A stretch of DNA of 64,000 bases from the NCBI GenBank assembly GCA_030220185.1, contig JASPKZ010010238.1, forward strand, positions 965,501-1,029,500. The letters are read 5' to 3'. Position 1 is the stretch's first letter; each line of letters starts with the position of its first letter. The stretch comes from Diploptera punctata (taxonomy: Eukaryota; Arthropoda; Insecta; Blattodea; Blaberidae). A model generated the notes under the pieces. That model searched no databases. It saw only the letters and a list, made by a program, of their open reading frames with translations, and was not told where the DNA came from. This document shows, piece after piece, positions 4,484 through 60,267 of this stretch. The position numbers and the translations under genes were made by a program.

Positions 4484-4735
4484 ATCGGCCTCGTCTGACG
4501 GATTATGTTCCTCGGCACTGGTCCTGAGGGAAACAGGTTCAAATCTGCCCGCGTTTGATGGATATTCAGAATGGAAACATTGAAGGGGGGACTTTAAGCT
4601 GTGGATCCCGAGCCTGAAGATATTCGAGCTCATAAAAGAACCGCAAGCCTAAATTAGAACCCGTGAACAAAATTTAATCGACGTTACTGATCGAAGTAAT
4701 ATCTTAGCTGCCTACCAGGCATCTGTTTGATTCGA
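4484..4735 (+). mobile_element. SINE-C, degenerate copy
   Basis: It matches 49712-50075 through a B-box-like CAGGTTCAAATC, a GACTTTAAGC segment and CCCGAGCCTGAAGAT. Many substitutions indicate an old copy. Confidence 0.6.
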
Positions 4736-4785
4736 CGAGCTAATCACTTGTCACTCGATGACATATGACTTAATTGCAACTAATA

Positions 4786-5466
4786 ATCCAGGCAGAGAAC
4801 TGACTCACGGACAACTGCCAGCCCTCTGAATAGCAGCACATGATATTATATTCTTAGCATATTGGCTGCAGTGCCCTAAACTAACTCGTAAGACTGTCAC
4901 ACATAGAGACCTAAAATATATGAACAATGCAGCTCTGTTTGAAGACGCTATAAAATTACCCTGGTATACAATATGGATGTTGCATTCTGTAGACGAAGAA
5001 GTTGAAGCATTAATTAAGCTTATTTTAAAATTATATGACAGACACGCTCCACTGAAAATAAACTCGTGAAACGACACCCTGCTCCCTGGATGACTGATAA
5101 CATTCGTAACTTGATGATTGAAAGAAACGCAGCACATCGGAAATATAGACTCGACAAAACTGACATAAATCTCAATCACTATAAACAGTTACGTAACAAG
5201 ACTAATCAAACTATAAGAAACGCCAAACTTAGACATATATACAGCCTTACTGAACCAAATAGCAATAACCCAGAAATACTTAATTGTATTATTAGACAAT
5301 TATTTTCATAATTACTCAATTTGAACAGATAATTAATTGTTTAAAAGAATAGAACAAAATCTATCAGCCGTAATTGTTTGTATTTAAATGTAACTTACGT
5401 TTTTTCGGAAGAGAAGGCCACATGGATTTAACTCCACCAGGCTAAATAAATCTATTATATTCTATT
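4786..5466 (+). mobile_element. Jockey/CR1-like LINE, internally deleted
   Basis: A reading frame with one in-frame stop near 5068 encodes the linker between endonuclease and reverse transcriptase: LYDRHAPLK, a stop, then RHPAPWMTDNIRNLM, HYKQLRNKTNQTIRNAK. This order is typical of Jockey/CR1-type ORF2. The frame ends at 5311, and the sequence then jumps to a LINE 3' end with GAAGGCCACATGG and CTCCACCAGGCTAAATAAAT. The catalytic reverse transcriptase is therefore deleted. The same 3' end recurs at 19438-19600 and 23194-23420 (inverted) and 28209-28254. Confidence 0.7.
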
Positions 5467-31216: not shown

Positions 31217-31478
31217 TATTCACGTAGACTTTCACGGCCGGAGTTGCTATGATGATCTTGAAGAAGGTTTTCGGGCTGTAGGCCGTGGTCGTGAGACTTG
31301 TAGTTCCCCGACGTTTCGCCAGAGACTGCGTCTGGCATCCTCAAGGGTTGTCTTGTCTGAGCCAAGACAAGACAACCCTTGAGGATGCCAGACGCAGTCT
31401 CTGGCGAAACGTCGGGGAACTACAAGCCTCACGACCACGGCCTACAGCCCAAAAATCTTCATCAAGATCATCAATAAT
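31217..31478. mobile_element. PLE-A3, near-perfect fold-back unit
   Basis: Two arms of about 115 bases form an inverted repeat centred near 31359, with a spacer of only a few bases (TCTGAGCCAAGA). Each arm has GGCCGTGGTCGTGAG, GTAGTTCCCCGACGTTTCGC and GTCTGGCATCCTCAAGGG. The outer left end has TTTCACGGCCGGAGTTGCTA. Because both strands read alike, similar short frames occur on both; they are not genes. Confidence 0.85.
31376..31416 (+). ncRNA. Hammerhead-like motif in PLE-A3 right arm
   Basis: CCCTTGAGGATGCC, a six-pair stem (GCCAGA/TCTGGC), GAAA, CG, TC and GGGG. It fits helix I (CCC/GGG), TUGAGGA core (C3 changed to U), helix II, GAAA and a minimal CG stem III. The mirror copy is on the minus strand at 31306-31347. 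Confidence 0.5.
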
Positions 31479-32584: not shown

Positions 32585-32599
32585 ATGAGCGACAGCTTA
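32585..32599. repeat. TSD of LINE-T, left (15 bp)
   Basis: ATGAGCGACAGCTTA here and at 33192-33206. Confidence 0.95.
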
Positions 32600-37810: not shown

Positions 37811-37901
37811 CCTCTGGTAGCTCAGTTGGTAGAGCGGTGGACGGTAGTGGTATATAATTTCAGTAATCCATAGGTCGCTGGTTCAAATCCGGTCCGGAGG
37901 A
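37811..37901 (+). tRNA. tRNA-Tyr (GTA) with an 18-base intron
   Basis: The acceptor CCTCTGG/CCGGAGG pairs, with discriminator A at 37901. The D-arm is GCTC..GAGC, and the anticodon stem GTGGA/TCCAT. The anticodon GTA is at 37844-37846, with the intron at 37848-37865 between positions 37 and 38, as in eukaryotic tRNA-Tyr. The T-arm GCTGG-TTCAAAT-CCGGT pairs with wobbles. TTTT directly follows as a polymerase III terminator. Position 33, nearly always U, is G (37843). The gene may be functional or a recent pseudogene. Confidence 0.88.
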
Positions 37902-53549: not shown

Positions 53550-53945
53550 CAAAAAAGCAATTTTTCCTTTACCCAAAGAAAACATAAAGAAATATGTCGT
53601 AATGTCATACATAGGCCCACTTTCAAATAAAATAACTAAACACTTTAAAAAGTTGAACATTAATGTGACATTTAAAACTAATAAAACTCTACAAAATATA
53701 ATAAAAAACAATAAAACCAAAACAAAAATTATCAGGTGTATATAAATTGAAGTGTGGCACATGTGACAATGTCTATATAGGACAAACTGGTAGACCTTTT
53801 ATCTCTCGGATAAAGGAACACATGAGAGCGTATAACAGAAATTTAGAAAATTCAAAATATGCTAACCGCCTATTCCAATTTAATCATTGTTTCGATCCAA
53901 ATTTTCAAATTTCACATATTTGTGATAAGGGTAAGAAGTAGATCT
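53550..53945 (+). pseudogene. Penelope-like protein: linker and GIY-YIG endonuclease
   Basis: KYVVMSYIGPLSNKITKHFK and FKTNKTLQNIIKNN precede a one-base shift near 53730. YKLKCGTCDNVYIGQTGRPF then holds the GIY-YIG-type core (here VYIG with QTGRPF), and SRIKEHMRAYNRN the conserved Arg and His. It continues SKYANRLFQFNH and ends in a stop at 53941. In full Penelope-like proteins the nuclease follows the reverse transcriptase. A zinc-finger-like CGTC lies just before the nuclease. Truncated, frameshifted. Confidence 0.85.
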
Positions 53946-54104
53946 TTTGGAGGCTGTAGAAATTAATTAATTTAAAAGTAGTAAAAAGCTGTTAAATTCT
54001 CAACTTGATTTGAATGAATCCCCTTTGTTAAATTAAAAAATTTAAATAAAAATTGTTGTATTGTTGCTTAGATCAGTTGGAACACAATTCATAATTTAAC
54101 ATGT

Positions 54105-54137
54105 CTGAAGAAGGTACAGTGTACCGAAACAGCTGTC
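54105..54137 (+). ncRNA. Hammerhead-like motif in PLE-B1
   Basis: CTGAAGA core, one extra A, helix II GGTAC/GTACC with AGT loop, GAAA, then the palindrome CAGCTG and TC. All core positions (CUGANGA, GAAA, UC) are present. Helix I pairing looks weak. Confidence 0.5.
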
Positions 54138-54504
54138 AATGAATTATATAATAAATATGAAAATCAAATAAAACTACGTTTTATTTTTATTTAATTAATA
54201 TAATTTAATATGTACATAACATTAGAATATAATTTATGGCAGTGGATAATTAATTAAGTCAAATATTTGGCATTAGTATAATATGAAAAAAATCTTGTAA
54301 ATACTTCAATGAGCTAGCCGAAAGAGAAATAAATATGAATTAAATGGGATTAACGTTACATAGCCTAAAATTAAATTCTAAACCCGAAACAGCCAAAAAT
54401 ATTATTGTTGGTATTCTCTTTTACAAAGAGTAAAAATAAAACAAATAAATGAACCCTTATACTTCAAACTTCAATGGTTTGTGCTAAGTAATTCTGTAAT
54501 TAAA

Positions 54505-54690
54505 ATTTCAAATTATATTGTACAAAACGCTAGAACAAGTAAAACGTTTCATTTATCTAGGTGTATCTTTAGGTAGTAATACAGAAAAATACATAAGTAA
54601 TAAATTACAAATATTTCAATATTTATGTGGCACCCTTAAAACAAAACTAGAAAGGAAAGTAAGAAAAGAAGTACAATTAAAATTGTACCG
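54505..54690 (+). mobile_element. LINE fragment, part 1 (host of the mitochondrial insertion)
   Basis: EQVKRFIYLGVSLGSNTEKY, then [19 protein letters not shown] and [10 protein letters not shown]. This is the segment that precedes LYGSExW in RTE-like LINEs. It stops at 54690 and resumes at 57330 with RKYGQSIIRIEAAEIKYLR; about 16-18 codons are missing between. Confidence 0.75.
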
Positions 54691-54893
54691 GTAAGAGGTT
54701 CAATAATTTTGGCTGGAATTCTTTTGAAGTTAGGAGGGTATGGATTACTTCGGGTGTATAATTTATTAATGAAAATTGGTTGTAAAATAAACTTCGTTTG
54801 GATTTCTGTTAGTGTAATAGGAGGAACTTTAGTTAGTTTAATTTGTATACGTCAGACTGATTTGAAAACTTTAATTGCCTATTCTTCAGTAGC

Positions 54894-55296
54894 ACATATA
54901 GGAATATAGCATATAACAGAAATTTAGAAAATTCAAACTATGCTAACCACCTATTCCAATTTAATCATTGTTTCGATCCAAATTTTGAAATTTTACATAT
55001 TTGTGATAAGGGTAAGAAGTTAGATCTTTTGGAGGCTGTAGAAATTAATAAGTTTAAAAGTAGTAAAAAACTGTTAAATTCTCTACTTGATTTGAATGAA
55101 TCCCCTTTTTTAAATTTAAAAATTTAAATAAATATTGTTGTATTGTTGCTTAGATCAGTTGGAACACAATTCATAATTTGTTAACATGTCTGAAGAAGGT
55201 ACAGTGTACCGAAACAGCTGTCACTAAATTATATAATAAATATGAAAATCAAATAAAACTACGTTTTATTTTTATTTAATTAATACATATAGGAAT
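54894..55296 (+). mobile_element. PLE-B2 inserted in the NUMT, with 12-bp TSD
   Basis: The element is 54906-55284 (379 bases), with ACATATAGGAAT at 54894-54905 and 55285-55296. It matches 53828-54190 of PLE-B1 (ATAACAGAAATTTAGAAAAT to CGTTTTATTTTTATTTAATT). It encodes only the end of the GIY-YIG region (CFDPNFEILHICDKGKKLDL, LEAVEINKFKSSKK). Confidence 0.95.
55190..55222 (+). ncRNA. Hammerhead-like motif in PLE-B2
   Basis: Identical to 54105-54137: CTGAAGA, GGTAC/GTACC, GAAA, CAGCTG, TC. The following ACTAAAT differs from the AATGAAT of PLE-B1. Confidence 0.5.
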
Positions 55297-55445
55297 TGTT
55301 ATCTGTGGTTTAATAACTTTGACTTATTGACGGTATTGTGGATCTTATACTTTAATAATTGCCCACGGTCTTTGTTCTTCTGGTTTATTTTGTTTAGCAA
55401 ATATTACATATGAACGGTTGGGTAGTCGTAGATTAATAATATTAA

Positions 55446-57009
55446 CCCTTCAAAGTGGATGGATTTAAATGGCCGGGAATACTCTGATGCGGGAGGAAGT
55501 TCAGCGGTATTTAAACTCAGCCGTTCAGTGCCAGTATTCCAATAACGCATTTAAATTGATATATCTTGAGTAATTTAAATGTTTTTTTTATGGTCTTAAT
55601 ATAATATTTAATTAATTAAATTTGATACGGTTCTCACGTAACATCTCTGCATTTTTTGCAGACTTATTTATGGTTGTTGTGCCACAGTTGAAATAGGTCC
55701 TTTTTGTAAATTTCTCACATAAATGACACAGTGTATTGCACTAGGGATTCTTTGAAGAATTCAGAGAACCGGCTTACCTAACAACAAAACGAAATATTTA
55801 CACAAAGAGAAGGGTCTTGAAAAAAAAAGTATGATCTTCAAAAATTGGTGTGATAAATCTTCAAAATGTAAACCAGCTGTTTGACACTCGGGCAACAATA
55901 AGTGTATTTTTTCCCCTTGTGTTTACTTTGTTCATGTTTATTACAAACACATTGCTTGTATGCGCTGACCTTCTTTCTTGTAGGGGGGGGGACAGCGTTC
56001 TCCAAATGTGTCTTTCTAACACTTTGGAAACATTATTTTAGGTCGTGTGCCTTCAAAAAATGGTCTTTCTACACATCAGACCTGTTGTACTAAAAGACCT
56101 TCATCAACCCTAAATTTCAATGCCTTTCTTCTGGTTTCCAAACCGAAACCAGTTGATGAAATATGACTATACTAGTTTCGCCGGAGGTGTGGACTTAAAA
56201 GATCAACATGCTACAAGTCGGAAGATCGAGGGTTTGAGTCCCGGTGGATCAGGATTTTTAAACTGAACCAAACCTTCAGGCGGCACCGTGAACCCGGAGT
56301 TGACTCAGCCTCTAACTGAAATGAGTACCAGATGCTTGTTATGGGCCGTCAGACAGAAATAAGTACTCGGCTTACATCAAGTACCGATAGTTTAGAAAAG
56401 TGGGAGCCTTAACCTCCTAATATCCCAAGAACCTTCTAAGGTCTGTAGTGGACCACTTTACCTTTTAGATACTGACTGAATTGTAGACTAACTACCTTTC
56501 CATAATGTAAGGATATCGTCATTTGAAATGTGTGTATATATATATCTGAAATTTACTGTTGTGTTCCTGTACTGTAGCGTAAATCGGAAATAACTTTGTT
56601 GGGTCTTTATATATACTGAATTTTGCGACATTATTATTAAAAATGAAGAGATTTGAAAATAGATACAATTTGATAGACAAGCTAATCTACAAAAAAAGGC
56701 GAATTTAGTTTTATAAGAAATCCTTTATCAAGTTATAAATTTAAGAAAAATGTCAGAGGCCGCAAGAATAAATGCAAATATAAAATTATTTTAACTTGTT
56801 ACTGAGGGCCGTAATCAGTTAATATATGCACTAATATAAACTTTGAAGTCTCTACATAAAATTTGTATAAACTGTAAATAGTTAATGTAAACACAAAGCT
56901 AATAATTACAGTTTAAAGCAGTGCGTGTAGCTAGCGTACACGTCACGTCGTTCCGCATTTGGTGAAGAATTCAACGTGCGTACACGTCACGTCGCTCCAC
57001 GCTGACGGG
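55446..57009. mobile_element. piggyBac-like element inserted in the NUMT
   Basis: TTAA at 55442-55445 and 57010-57013 bounds 1564 bases. The TIRs are CCCTTCAAAGTGGATGG left and CCCGTCAGCGTGGAGCG right (reverse complement), 12 of 17 identical. Near the right end CGTACACGTCACGTCG is present twice (about 56935-56998). No transposase frame is recognisable. It contains a SINE-A. The ND4 reading continues across the target site. Confidence 0.85.
56185..56466 (+). mobile_element. SINE-A inside the piggyBac-like element
   Basis: GGAAGATCGAGGGTTTGAGT, TTTTTAAACTGAACCAAACC, GTAGTGGACCACTTTACC. The 5' A-box part is missing or altered. Confidence 0.8.
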
Positions 57010-57329
57010 TTAATAAGGGATTATTGAATTTTATATCTAGAATGTCTTTATGATGATTTTTATTAAAATCTTGTAATATGGCAGCCCCTCCTTCTATTAA
57101 TCTTTTAGGGGAGATTAGATTATTAAATAGAATAGTGGGCTGGAGTTTTCTTCTTATGTTAATGTTAATTTTTCTATAATTTTTTAGAGCAGCTTACACA
57201 TTATATATATTTTCTTATAGACAACATGGACAGATTTATTCTGATCTTTACTCTTGTTCTTTAGGGTATACTCGTAAATATTTATTATTATTTTTACACT
57301 GATTTCCTTTAAATCTCTTGATTGTAAAG

Positions 57330-57531
57330 GCTCGGAAATACGGACAGTCAATTATAAGAATAGAAGCAGCAGAAATTAAATATTTACGATTTGTGGCGGA
57401 ATATACTTTAATTAATAAAAAACGGAGTGAAGATATCCGTAAAGAACAACACATATTCAGTTTGACAGATAAAATAGAAGAGTATAGGAGAAAATGGTAT
57501 GAACATGTCTGCAAAATGGATACCAACAGAT
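57330..57531 (+). mobile_element. LINE fragment, part 2 (same host LINE)
   Basis: RKYGQSIIRIEAAEIKYLRF, LINKKRSEDIRKEQHIFSLT, YRRKWYEHVCKMDTNRLL. It is cut by LINE-T and continues at 58288. Confidence 0.8.
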
Positions 57532-58285
57532 TACTTACTTACTTACTTACTTACTCACTGGCACTATCGAACCCGTAGGTGCATGGCCGCGCAGACATAA
57601 GCTCTCCATACATCCCTATCCTGAGCTAATGCTTTCCAATCATTCCCTGTATAATCTACTTCCCTCAAATCATAGTTAATGTTGTTCTCCCATCTCATTC
57701 TTGGTCTACCAACTGGGCGTTTTCCCTCTGGCTTCCCTACAAGAAGCTTCCATGCACGTCTTTCATTCCACATAGGTGCAACATGTCCTGCCCATCGCAG
57801 TCTACAAGACTTAACCGTTCTTATTATATCTGGCTTCCTATAAAGACCATGTAGTTCATTGTTATGTAGTCTTCTCCATTCACCTGTCTGTTCATCTCTC
57901 TTTGGTCCAAAATTTTTCCTAAGAACTTTATTTTCAAAAACTCGTAATCTCATTTCCTCGCTTAAAGTAAGAGTCCATGTTTTGCACCCATATAATATAA
58001 CTGGTAGAATAATAGTTTTATATATTTTCAGTTTAACGTTTTTTGAAAGGAGTTGGGACATCAAGCGTCTCTACTATGCATAATAGCATGCATTTCCAGA
58101 ATTGAGCCTATGTTTAATTTCTTTGTGCATCTCATTCCTATTTGTGATTATTGTTCCTAGGTATTTGAATTCAGCCACTTCCTCAAAATTCCCCTCATTT
58201 GTCATTAGCTGTCCATTTCCATTATATAATGAATTTCTACGTGTGACCATATATTTAGTTTCATTGATATTTACTTGATTTCCTT
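57532..58285 (-). mobile_element. LINE-T inserted in the host LINE
   Basis: The minus strand encodes ETKYMVTRRNSLYNGNGQLM, FKYLGTIITNRNEMHKEI and LPVILYGCKTWTLTLSEE. A one-base change splits the frame near 58070, and the GRPRMRWENN end follows. The plus-strand tail is (TTAC)n. 5'-truncated within the RT domain. Confidence 0.9.
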
Positions 58286-58287
58286 GG

Positions 58288-58430
58288 GAAAAGTCTGAAT
58301 TATCAGCCAAGAGGAGGAAAAAGAAATCGGGGACGCCCACGAAAGAGAGGGACACAGCAGCTGTAATACTTGGAACCGGATCCAACCAAAAATGTTTAAT
58401 TCTTGCAACAAGAAGAAGAAGAAATTATGC
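58288..58430 (+). mobile_element. LINE fragment, part 3 (C-terminal tail)
   Basis: LNYQPRGGKRNRGRPRKRGT, then QQL, a stop, and (GAA)n. It directly completes MDTNRL of part 2, since RLPKxxLNYxPRG is the usual order. Confidence 0.8.
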
Positions 58431-58434
58431 TACA

Positions 58435-59085
58435 TTCCTTAGGATTTAATGCCACTGTTTGCATGCTATTTCGCTTCTCGCTTCATTCTCTAAAGTATCA
58501 TGTCCTGAACAATTTAATTGTAAAAGATAAGTAAGTATTGACATTCACCTATTTTGTTTACGACGGCGCTAAAAAAACTTCTTGATTCTAAAAAAAAATG
58601 GAAAAATTAATCGGCCAATATATTTTGACACATATTTGCATCATGATATAGAACACAAGTGTTGCTGAAATAGGACAAAGAGAGAAATAAATATCGGTGT
58701 TTGGAATTTTATCCAATGAGTGTCAGCTGATACAATTGTTGTTTTGTTATATGTATTTATGATCTCACATCACTTATCCATCGAGGCGATAAAATGTTTT
58801 GAAGCTATGGAGAGTGTGGATTAACTTATCATTTTGTATATCTCCCTACACATGAAATATTGGTTATCAAACAATATAAATGACAATCCAGTTGAAAAGT
58901 TATTCTAAAATGTAAAACATATTTAACACAGCCCATTGGGATTAGATTGTTTATTTAACTAGCATGTGTTCCTTATTATTACATGCACATATGTGTGTTC
59001 TGCAAGCGCATGTCTGTATGTACATATGTGTCGTGTGTTAGTGCATAATTATGCAGACTTTATTTATGTTTCAAATTTTGCTGAA
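58435..59085. other. No gene recognised
   Basis: AT-rich; nothing identified. Confidence 0.5.
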
Positions 59086-59086
59086 C

Positions 59087-60267
59087 TAATCTTTGTATAT
59101 AATGGGAATATAATGGTACTGTACATCAACTATATGTAGACTTCAAAAAAGCATATGATTCAATTAAGAGGGAGAAGTTATATAGTATCCTGCTGGAGTT
59201 CGGAATTTCTGAAAAGTTAGTTAGACTTATACGAATGTTTCTAAATGGCTCAAAGAGTAGGGTGCGTGTAGGCAAACAGTTTTCAGACACTTTTGAAATC
59301 CAGAATGGGTTGAAGCAAGGAGATGCACTATCTCTTCTACTATTTAATTTTGTACTAGAGCATGCCATTAAATCTTTAGAGAATGAGGAAGGCTTACAAC
59401 TGAATGGCGTTAATAAGCTGTTAGTTTATGCTGATGGTGTAGTATTATTGGGCGATAGCGAGGAGATACTAAAGGACAACACGCACACACTATTGAGTAC
59501 CACTAAGAAATTAGGACTGGAAGTAAATATCAGTAAAACTAAATATATGGTCACACGTAGAAATTCATTATATAATGGAAATGAACAGCTAATGACAAAT
59601 GAGGGCAATTTTCAGGAAGTGGCTGAATTCAAATACCTAGGAACAATAATCACAAATAGGAATGAGATGCACAAAGAAATTGAACATAGGCTCAATTCTG
59701 GAAATGCATGCTATTACGCATTGCAGAGACTTTTGATGTCCCAACTCCTTTCAAAAAACGTTAAGCTGAAAATATACAAAACTATTATTCTACCAGTTAT
59801 ATTATATGGGTGCGAAACATGGACTCTTACTTTAAGGGAGGAAAGGAGATTACGAGTATTTGAGAATAAAGTTTTAGGAAAATTTTGGACCAAGGAGAGA
59901 TGAACAGACAGGTGAATGGAGAGGACTACATGACAATGAACTACATGGTCTTTATAGGAAGCCAGATATAATAAGAACAGTTAAGTCCCGTAGACTGCGA
60001 TGGGCAGGACATGTTGCGCGTATGGGGAATGAAAGACGTGCATGGAAACTTCTTGTAGGAAAGCCAGAAGGAAAACGCCCAGTTGGTAGACCAAGAATGA
60101 GGTGGGAGAACAATATTAACTATGATTTGAGGGAAGTAGATTATAGAGGGAATGATTGGAAAGCATTAGCTCAGGATAGGGATGTATGGAGAGCTTATGT
60201 CCGCGCGGCCATGAACCTAAGGGTTCGATAGTGCCAGTGAGTAAGTAAGTAAGTAATCTTTGTATAT
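59087..60267 (+). mobile_element. LINE-T with perfect 14-bp TSD
   Basis: The element is 59101-60253. TAATCTTTGTATAT lies at 59087-59100 and 60254-60267. It starts inside the RT domain (YVDFKKAYDSIKREKLYSIL) and ends in (AAGT)n. Confidence 0.97.
59101..60231 (+). pseudogene. LINE-T ORF2 fragment
   Basis: Motif B LKQGDALSLLLFNFVLE. Motif C is YADG instead of YADD (LLVYADGVVLLGDS), so the second catalytic Asp is lost. Then KYLGTIITNRNEMHKEIEH. A frameshift at about 59876 (VLGKFWTKER) separates the last part, RMGNERRAWKLLVGKPEGKR to VRAAMNLRVR at 60231. Inactive, but its sequence is close to 43556-44803. Confidence 0.92.

Follow-up and report, generated by a model that had tools for sequence, protein, structure and literature searches.

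A nested insertion block in Diploptera punctata and a SINE that probably travelled with its piggyBac-like host

Background

Can the history of a stack of insertions be read from its nesting alone, or may an inner element have arrived together with the one that contains it? This question is raised by a block of insertions in a 64,000-nucleotide stretch of contig JASPKZ010010238.1 from Diploptera punctata (positions 965,501 to 1,029,500; hereafter "the window"). A sequence-only reading of the window described one LINE split in three, with mitochondrial ND4 DNA in its first gap and a second LINE (LINE-T) in its second, the ND4 itself being split by a Penelope-like element (PLE) and by a TTAA-bounded piggyBac-like element with a SINE inside. 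We searched the assembly (3.12 Gb, 10,165 contigs; the best 40 candidates scored per search) for other copies of these parts and revised their limits (Table 1). With a probability of about 0.93, we conclude that five separate insertions built the block and that the SINE is a sixth element, which came as a passenger. The nested stack is real yet ordinary, every part of it being of a known kind, and its pieces are truncated or have no long open frames.

Table 1. Features of the nested block, in window coordinates (mt, mitochondrial position)
Feature	Position	Strand	Remarks
Left flanking repeat AAATTAT of outer LINE	54510..54516	+	candidate target-site duplication, perfect match to 58422-58428
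Outer LINE piece 1, 5'-truncated	54517..54687	+	from alignment to other copies; start approximate, similarity clear from about 54522
ND4 piece 1	54688..54905	+	mt 4774-4991; ends with the 12-base PLE target repeat
PLE, 5'-truncated copy, 379 nt	54906..55284	+	limits from six fetched copies and the copy at 53827
12-bp target repeat, right copy, ACATATAGGAAT	55285..55296	+	perfect repeat of left copy, 54894-54905
ND4 piece 2	55297..55445	+	left TTAA (55442-55445) included; mt 4981-5135 corresponds to 55286-55440
piggyBac-like element, non-autonomous, 1564 bp	55446..57009	+	CCCTTC...GACGGG, TTAA on both sides
SINE-A, 5'-truncated, inside piggyBac-like element	56204..56466	+	limits approximate; resembles SINEs at 1295, 62275, 46591 and 10934
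ND4 piece 3	57010..57330	+	right TTAA (57010-57013) at start; mt 5135-5455
Outer LINE piece 2	57329..57532	+	GG (57329-57330) common to ND4; GATT (57529-57532) repeated after LINE-T
LINE-T, 5'-truncated 3' end of second non-LTR retrotransposon	57533..58276	-	(TTAC)n tail at left
Outer LINE piece 3	58277..58421	+	starts with GATT; AAG/GAA-rich tail at end
Right flanking repeat AAATTAT of outer LINE	58422..58428	+	pairs with 54510-54516

Results and discussion

The outer LINE and LINE-T

Our analysis bore out that a single LINE is split in three, all pieces having the same orientation, but its limits, previously put at 54505-58430, had to be corrected to approximately 54517-58421, with AAATTAT flanks starting at 54510 and 58422. 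No other perfect repeat of at least 6 bp turned up when 54490-54525 was compared with 58400-58440. A 200-base query identified 39 other scored copies in the assembly (best 40 of 2,570 candidates), of which 29 were fetched and 12, hand-picked for covering the joins, were aligned. All 12 are uninterrupted at the ND4 site as well as at the LINE-T site, and three of them (L015, L019 and L034) are unrelated to the window LINE farther upstream. The window LINE differs from the majority of copies at 41 of 498 sites (8.2%, which may reflect subfamily differences in part), and the 12 other copies span 2.4-13.2%. A search of Pfam, limited to two C-terminal pieces, gave no reverse transcriptase match.

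At the ND4 join (54687/57329), about 30 nt of LINE sequence that are present in the 12 related copies are absent from the window, and another gap of 11 nt lies immediately to the right. Such losses would also be in keeping with a rearrangement that placed pieces of two LINE copies on either side of the mitochondrial insert (NUMT), in which case ND4 was never inserted into the LINE at all. We regard this as very improbable, as the pieces share one orientation, the LINE is continuous after the 30-nt gap, and both outer ends carry AAATTAT.

LINE-T is present in the second gap, as had been claimed, between two GATT repeats, and its insertion site reads AACAGATT in 12 of the 12 aligned LINE copies. 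The window contains seven other LINE-T copies of more than 400 bases (89-96% identity), from whose majority the nested copy differs at 24 of 732 sites. A longer copy (about 59133-60256) encodes a reverse transcriptase domain (RVT_1, E-value 1.5e-14). The target repeat of the nested copy is 4 bp long, and that of the copy at 32596 is at least 10 bp.

The mitochondrial ND4 insert

The first gap of the LINE does hold mitochondrial ND4, though not the 674 bases originally counted: the insert measures 684 nt (218+145+321). Translated with table 5 (invertebrate mitochondrial code), its first piece matches residues 212-284 of PDB entry 8b9z_M (E-value 2.7e-28), chain 4 of NADH-ubiquinone oxidoreductase, which we take to be a Drosophila entry. 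The three pieces join colinearly, as the nested reading demanded, being consecutive on the mitochondrial ND4 of the same assembly (mt coordinates are those of locus L041): the spans of pieces 1 and 2 overlap by the PLE target repeat only, and pieces 2 and 3 meet at the TTAA. L041 shares one identical ND4 stretch with L039 and L042, in each of which the frame is open. We note that L041 (C6400:94300-104200, in a 355-kb contig) is a long piece of mtDNA, 99% identical over about 7.1 kb to part of a 19-kb contig, and that it may be a NUMT that arose very recently, or a join made in assembly. Of 120 matches listed among 1,558 for the mitochondrial ND4 stretch of the assembly, the best was the ND4 of another cockroach, Opisthoplatia orientalis (Blattodea), at 86% identity.

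The window ND4 contains an in-frame stop and a 2-base insertion and reads through no longer, and its position inside a contig of 1,129,705 bases (C9704) places it in the nucleus. At its junctions GG is common to ND4 and LINE at the right and 0 or 1 bp at the left, with no target duplication; the loss of about 30 nt of LINE and the 2-bp microhomology at the right fit double-strand-break repair. Colinearity with a mitochondrial gene, nuclear location with no read-through and junctions of the end-joining type all characterize the insert as a NUMT. Three of five other NUMTs aligned (L002, L003 and L005, covering all 684, 657 and 653 nt of the window ND4, respectively) are continuous through both insertion sites and contain neither the PLE nor the piggyBac-like element; the remaining two (L004 and L007) are continuous at the PLE site and depart from mtDNA before the third piece.

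Compared to the mt reference, the window NUMT differs at 79 of 682 sites, with 14, 6 and 59 differences at codon positions 1, 2 and 3, respectively, an excess at third positions that would be expected for mtDNA under selection. Its private changes, counted against four other sequences (the mt reference plus the NUMTs at the loci of L002, L003 and L005, also numbered L045-L047), are 5, 3 and 8 at the three positions, i.e. 8 of 455 sites (about 1.8%) at positions 1 and 2. Judging from these counts, this more even spread would be as expected in the nucleus.

Searches with ND4 piece 1 gave 39 other scored matches (best 40 of 772 candidates). A nuclear repeat family with ND4 among its parts was considered and rejected: the flanks compared (L049 excluded) are similar only in ND4 at the E-value used. 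Nine of the 16 loci mapped (L043-L058), including the near-duplicates L048 and L049, start within mt 4732-4776, a clustering to be expected because the query favours short NUMTs that cover it. L048 and L049 lie on two contigs with 99.5% identity over 8.7 kb, and are perhaps separately kept haplotypes. L058, another ND4 NUMT, seems from inspection of its left flank by eye to lie within LINE-like sequence. It could be argued that the events took place at some other nested locus, of which the block would be a copy made by segmental duplication, given that repeats are abundant in the genome and that the matches scored are the best 40 of 772, but this has a very low probability, as no other scored match covering piece 1 in full exceeds 92% and the closest short fetched matches (L048 and L049, 97% over 150 nt) extend no further along this ND4 stretch, the flanks of L048 being unrelated.

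Five Blattodea have a mean of 84 COI NUMTs of at least 100 bp (PMC10249859), and two have been described from the cockroach Episymploce splendens, one of them 87% identical to its own mtDNA (PMC9162313). According to a review (PMC2820518), NUMTs fill double-strand breaks with 1-7 bp of microhomology, and deletions are absent from more than half of primate NUMTs and otherwise very small. Like insect NUMTs described in the passages cited, the window ND4 is a short piece of mtDNA with slight microhomology at a junction; unlike the primate NUMTs portrayed there, it lost about 30 nt of its target, which is larger than usual (PMC2820518). Cockroach NUMTs nested with transposons were not found among the literature matches listed, by which we do not claim that they are absent from print; the words "transposon", "transposable" and "nested" are all absent from the main text of PMC9162313.

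The Penelope-like element

The PLE was said to split ND4 with a 12-bp target-site duplication, and a perfect 12-bp repeat, ACATATAGGAAT, indeed flanks it. There are 39 other copies at 96-99% identity (best 40 of 519 candidates). When six fetched copies and the window's own copy at 53827-54200 were aligned with the nested one, the 3' end fell at an identical position in all of them, and the nested copy proved to be shortened at its 5' end; it shows 6 differences from the majority in 377 sites (1.6%) and 0 private substitutions. A hammerhead-like core string (CTGAAGA, GGTAC stem, GAAA) is present in all eight aligned copies (in the window at 55166-55240 and 54090-54150) and is followed by CAGCTGTC in six of them, and the core region folds with two hammerhead-like stems. 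The insertions of the PLE and of the LINE are in keeping with target-primed reverse transcription.

Directly upstream of the block (window 53740-54200) lies a longer PLE copy, 95% identical to the nested one. It contains a GIY-YIG-like segment with a Pfam score of 17.4 bits, under the curated 22.6 (E-value 0.0055). We also observed short inverted PLE pieces adjoining full copies at L068 (C4794:272983-273027) and at C7844:2000623-2000658; inverted tails of this kind are known from Penelope elements. The PLE copies resemble the Penelope-like elements described in PMC11167929 and PMC6155905 in the 5' truncation and, tentatively, in the putative GIY-YIG-like segment of the longer copy and the hammerhead-like core, and differ from the elements in the passages cited in that this core has no match in Rfam and the nested 379-nt fragment is without a reverse transcriptase.

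The piggyBac-like element and its SINE

The TTAA-bounded element in ND4 was found as claimed, between TTAA at 55442 and at 57010. Its first 715 bases have 39 other copies at 95-97% identity (best 40 of 1,452 candidates), 36 of which start directly behind TTAA and the other three one or two bases further into the query. The six copies fetched all have TTAA on both sides, unrelated flanks and the SINE at an identical point; one of them (L062) has CCTC in place of CCCT at its left end. The TTAA target duplication and the terminal inverted repeats beginning with CCC are those of piggyBac, the repeats being short and imperfect (in the window copy, 11 of the 14 end bases agree). No match to a DDE transposase was obtained from Pfam or PDB for the pieces tried; a GGVDLKDQ stretch presumably resembles a motif of the piggyBac family. 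Since no transposase domain was recognised, we label the element piggyBac-like and non-autonomous; judging from its sequence, it keeps both ends and might be mobilised by a putative helper transposase. Once it is removed, the left TTAA has two bases next to it that are lacking in the three NUMTs that reach the site. CCCTT is the best conserved end motif of piggyBac (PMC10813416), and the window element is like members of this superfamily in being flanked by TTAA and in having ends that begin with CCC, and unlike those in the passages cited in its lack of a recognised transposase domain, its imperfect short terminal repeats and the SINE inside.

This SINE-A is 75-86% identical to other SINE copies of the window, four of which were aligned. 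It has no tRNA match by ARAGORN or Rfam, and we assume that it contains Pol III boxes. The sequence-only reading took it for a later layer within the local piggyBac-like copy, i.e. for an insertion that came last, when its host had already landed in ND4, and both its position inside the element and its similarity to other SINEs of the window are compatible with this. The other copies of the element tell against it: the SINE is at one shared position in 18 of the 18 read, six of them in full and with unrelated flanks, 12 across the junction (the top-ranked rows not yet fetched and not among the matches to a junction query). The element-SINE junction query itself gave 39 of 39 other best matches that are continuous end to end at 98-99%, in a search that favours such matches. 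In total the junction was confirmed in 27 of the 39 scored copies (nine via the junction query), and none was seen without it among those.

From the majority of copies the window element differs at 18 of 1546 sites (1.2%; 7 of 1546 unique, a TA-rich microsatellite excluded) and its SINE part at 2 of 263, within the range of other copies. Divergence from the majority is comparable among the copies (0.97-2.14%), which argues against the window copy as the sole source of the family. As the SINE is common to all copies read, it was aboard before the jump into ND4, and we attach hardly any weight to a late insertion.

We think it probable that a piggyBac-like element with its coding part broken by the SINE was the founder of a many-copy family, in which the SINE piece spreads by cut-and-paste and not by RNA copying. 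This family possibly comprises hundreds of copies or more (1,452 first-look candidates, of which the best 40 were scored). The closest parallel is MER6, a Mariner-derived MITE that has spread a SINE domain in mammals, another case of SINE-derived sequence multiplied within a DNA transposon (PMC6887750); unlike the Mariner-derived, mammalian MER6 as described there, the carrier in the window is piggyBac-like and from an insect.

Order and age of the insertions

It had been proposed that the removal of any layer gives back the layer beneath it, so that the order of events is readable and each layer gives a relative date. Removal does restore the layer below for the PLE and LINE-T and nearly so for the piggyBac-like element, but not for ND4, where about 30 nt of LINE were deleted. 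The order of the LINE, then ND4, then the PLE and the piggyBac-like element, with LINE-T within the LINE, stands, whereas the SINE has to be taken from the end of the series. Nesting gives no order for the PLE versus the piggyBac-like element, nor for LINE-T versus the ND4 stack. The relative dates are compatible with the order and rough, because different types of reference were used: the divergences are 8.2% for the LINE, about 1.8% for the NUMT, 1.6% for the PLE (with no private change) and 1.2% for the piggyBac-like element, each by its own yardstick, and the last three are too close and too differently derived to be ranked on their own.

We propose that the five insertions proceeded as follows. 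The LINE, 5'-truncated, would have landed by target-primed reverse transcription, to which we attribute the AAATTAT repeat observed. A double-strand break in this LINE would then have been closed with 684 nt of ND4, presumably by end-joining, at the cost of the approximately 30 nt seen to be missing. A Penelope-like RNA copied into ND4 would have given the 5'-truncated copy and the 12-bp duplication, and, before or after this, the piggyBac-like element with the truncated SINE aboard would have inserted at a TTAA of ND4. LINE-T would have been copied farther downstream into the same LINE, with no set order relative to the ND4, PLE and piggyBac-like steps. Points against this scheme are the LINE-T repeat of only 4 bp, given at least 10 bp for the copy at 32596, the two surplus bases at the left TTAA and the 11-nt gap near the ND4 join.

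Other features of the window

Outside the block, we observed a near-perfect palindrome of 168 bp at 31278-31445 (identical to its reverse complement at 162 of 168 positions), probably a fold-back element, and an intact-looking tRNA gene at 37811-37901, identified as tRNA-Leu by ARAGORN (bacterial code), which has 24 nt where the Rfam model has 6, suggesting an intron. Rfam matches to MIR538, mir-4 and mir-1537 were rejected, all being under the gathering scores, the first two on one palindrome.

Conclusions

Nested insertions serve for dating transposon activity, but such stratigraphy can mislead: an inner element need not be younger than the element around it and may have travelled with its host. 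A comparison of sibling copies settles in one step whether an inner element is a passenger or a late insertion. The SINE-carrying piggyBac-like family is the best lead from the block and a clean example, in an insect, of a DNA transposon multiplying a SINE fragment.
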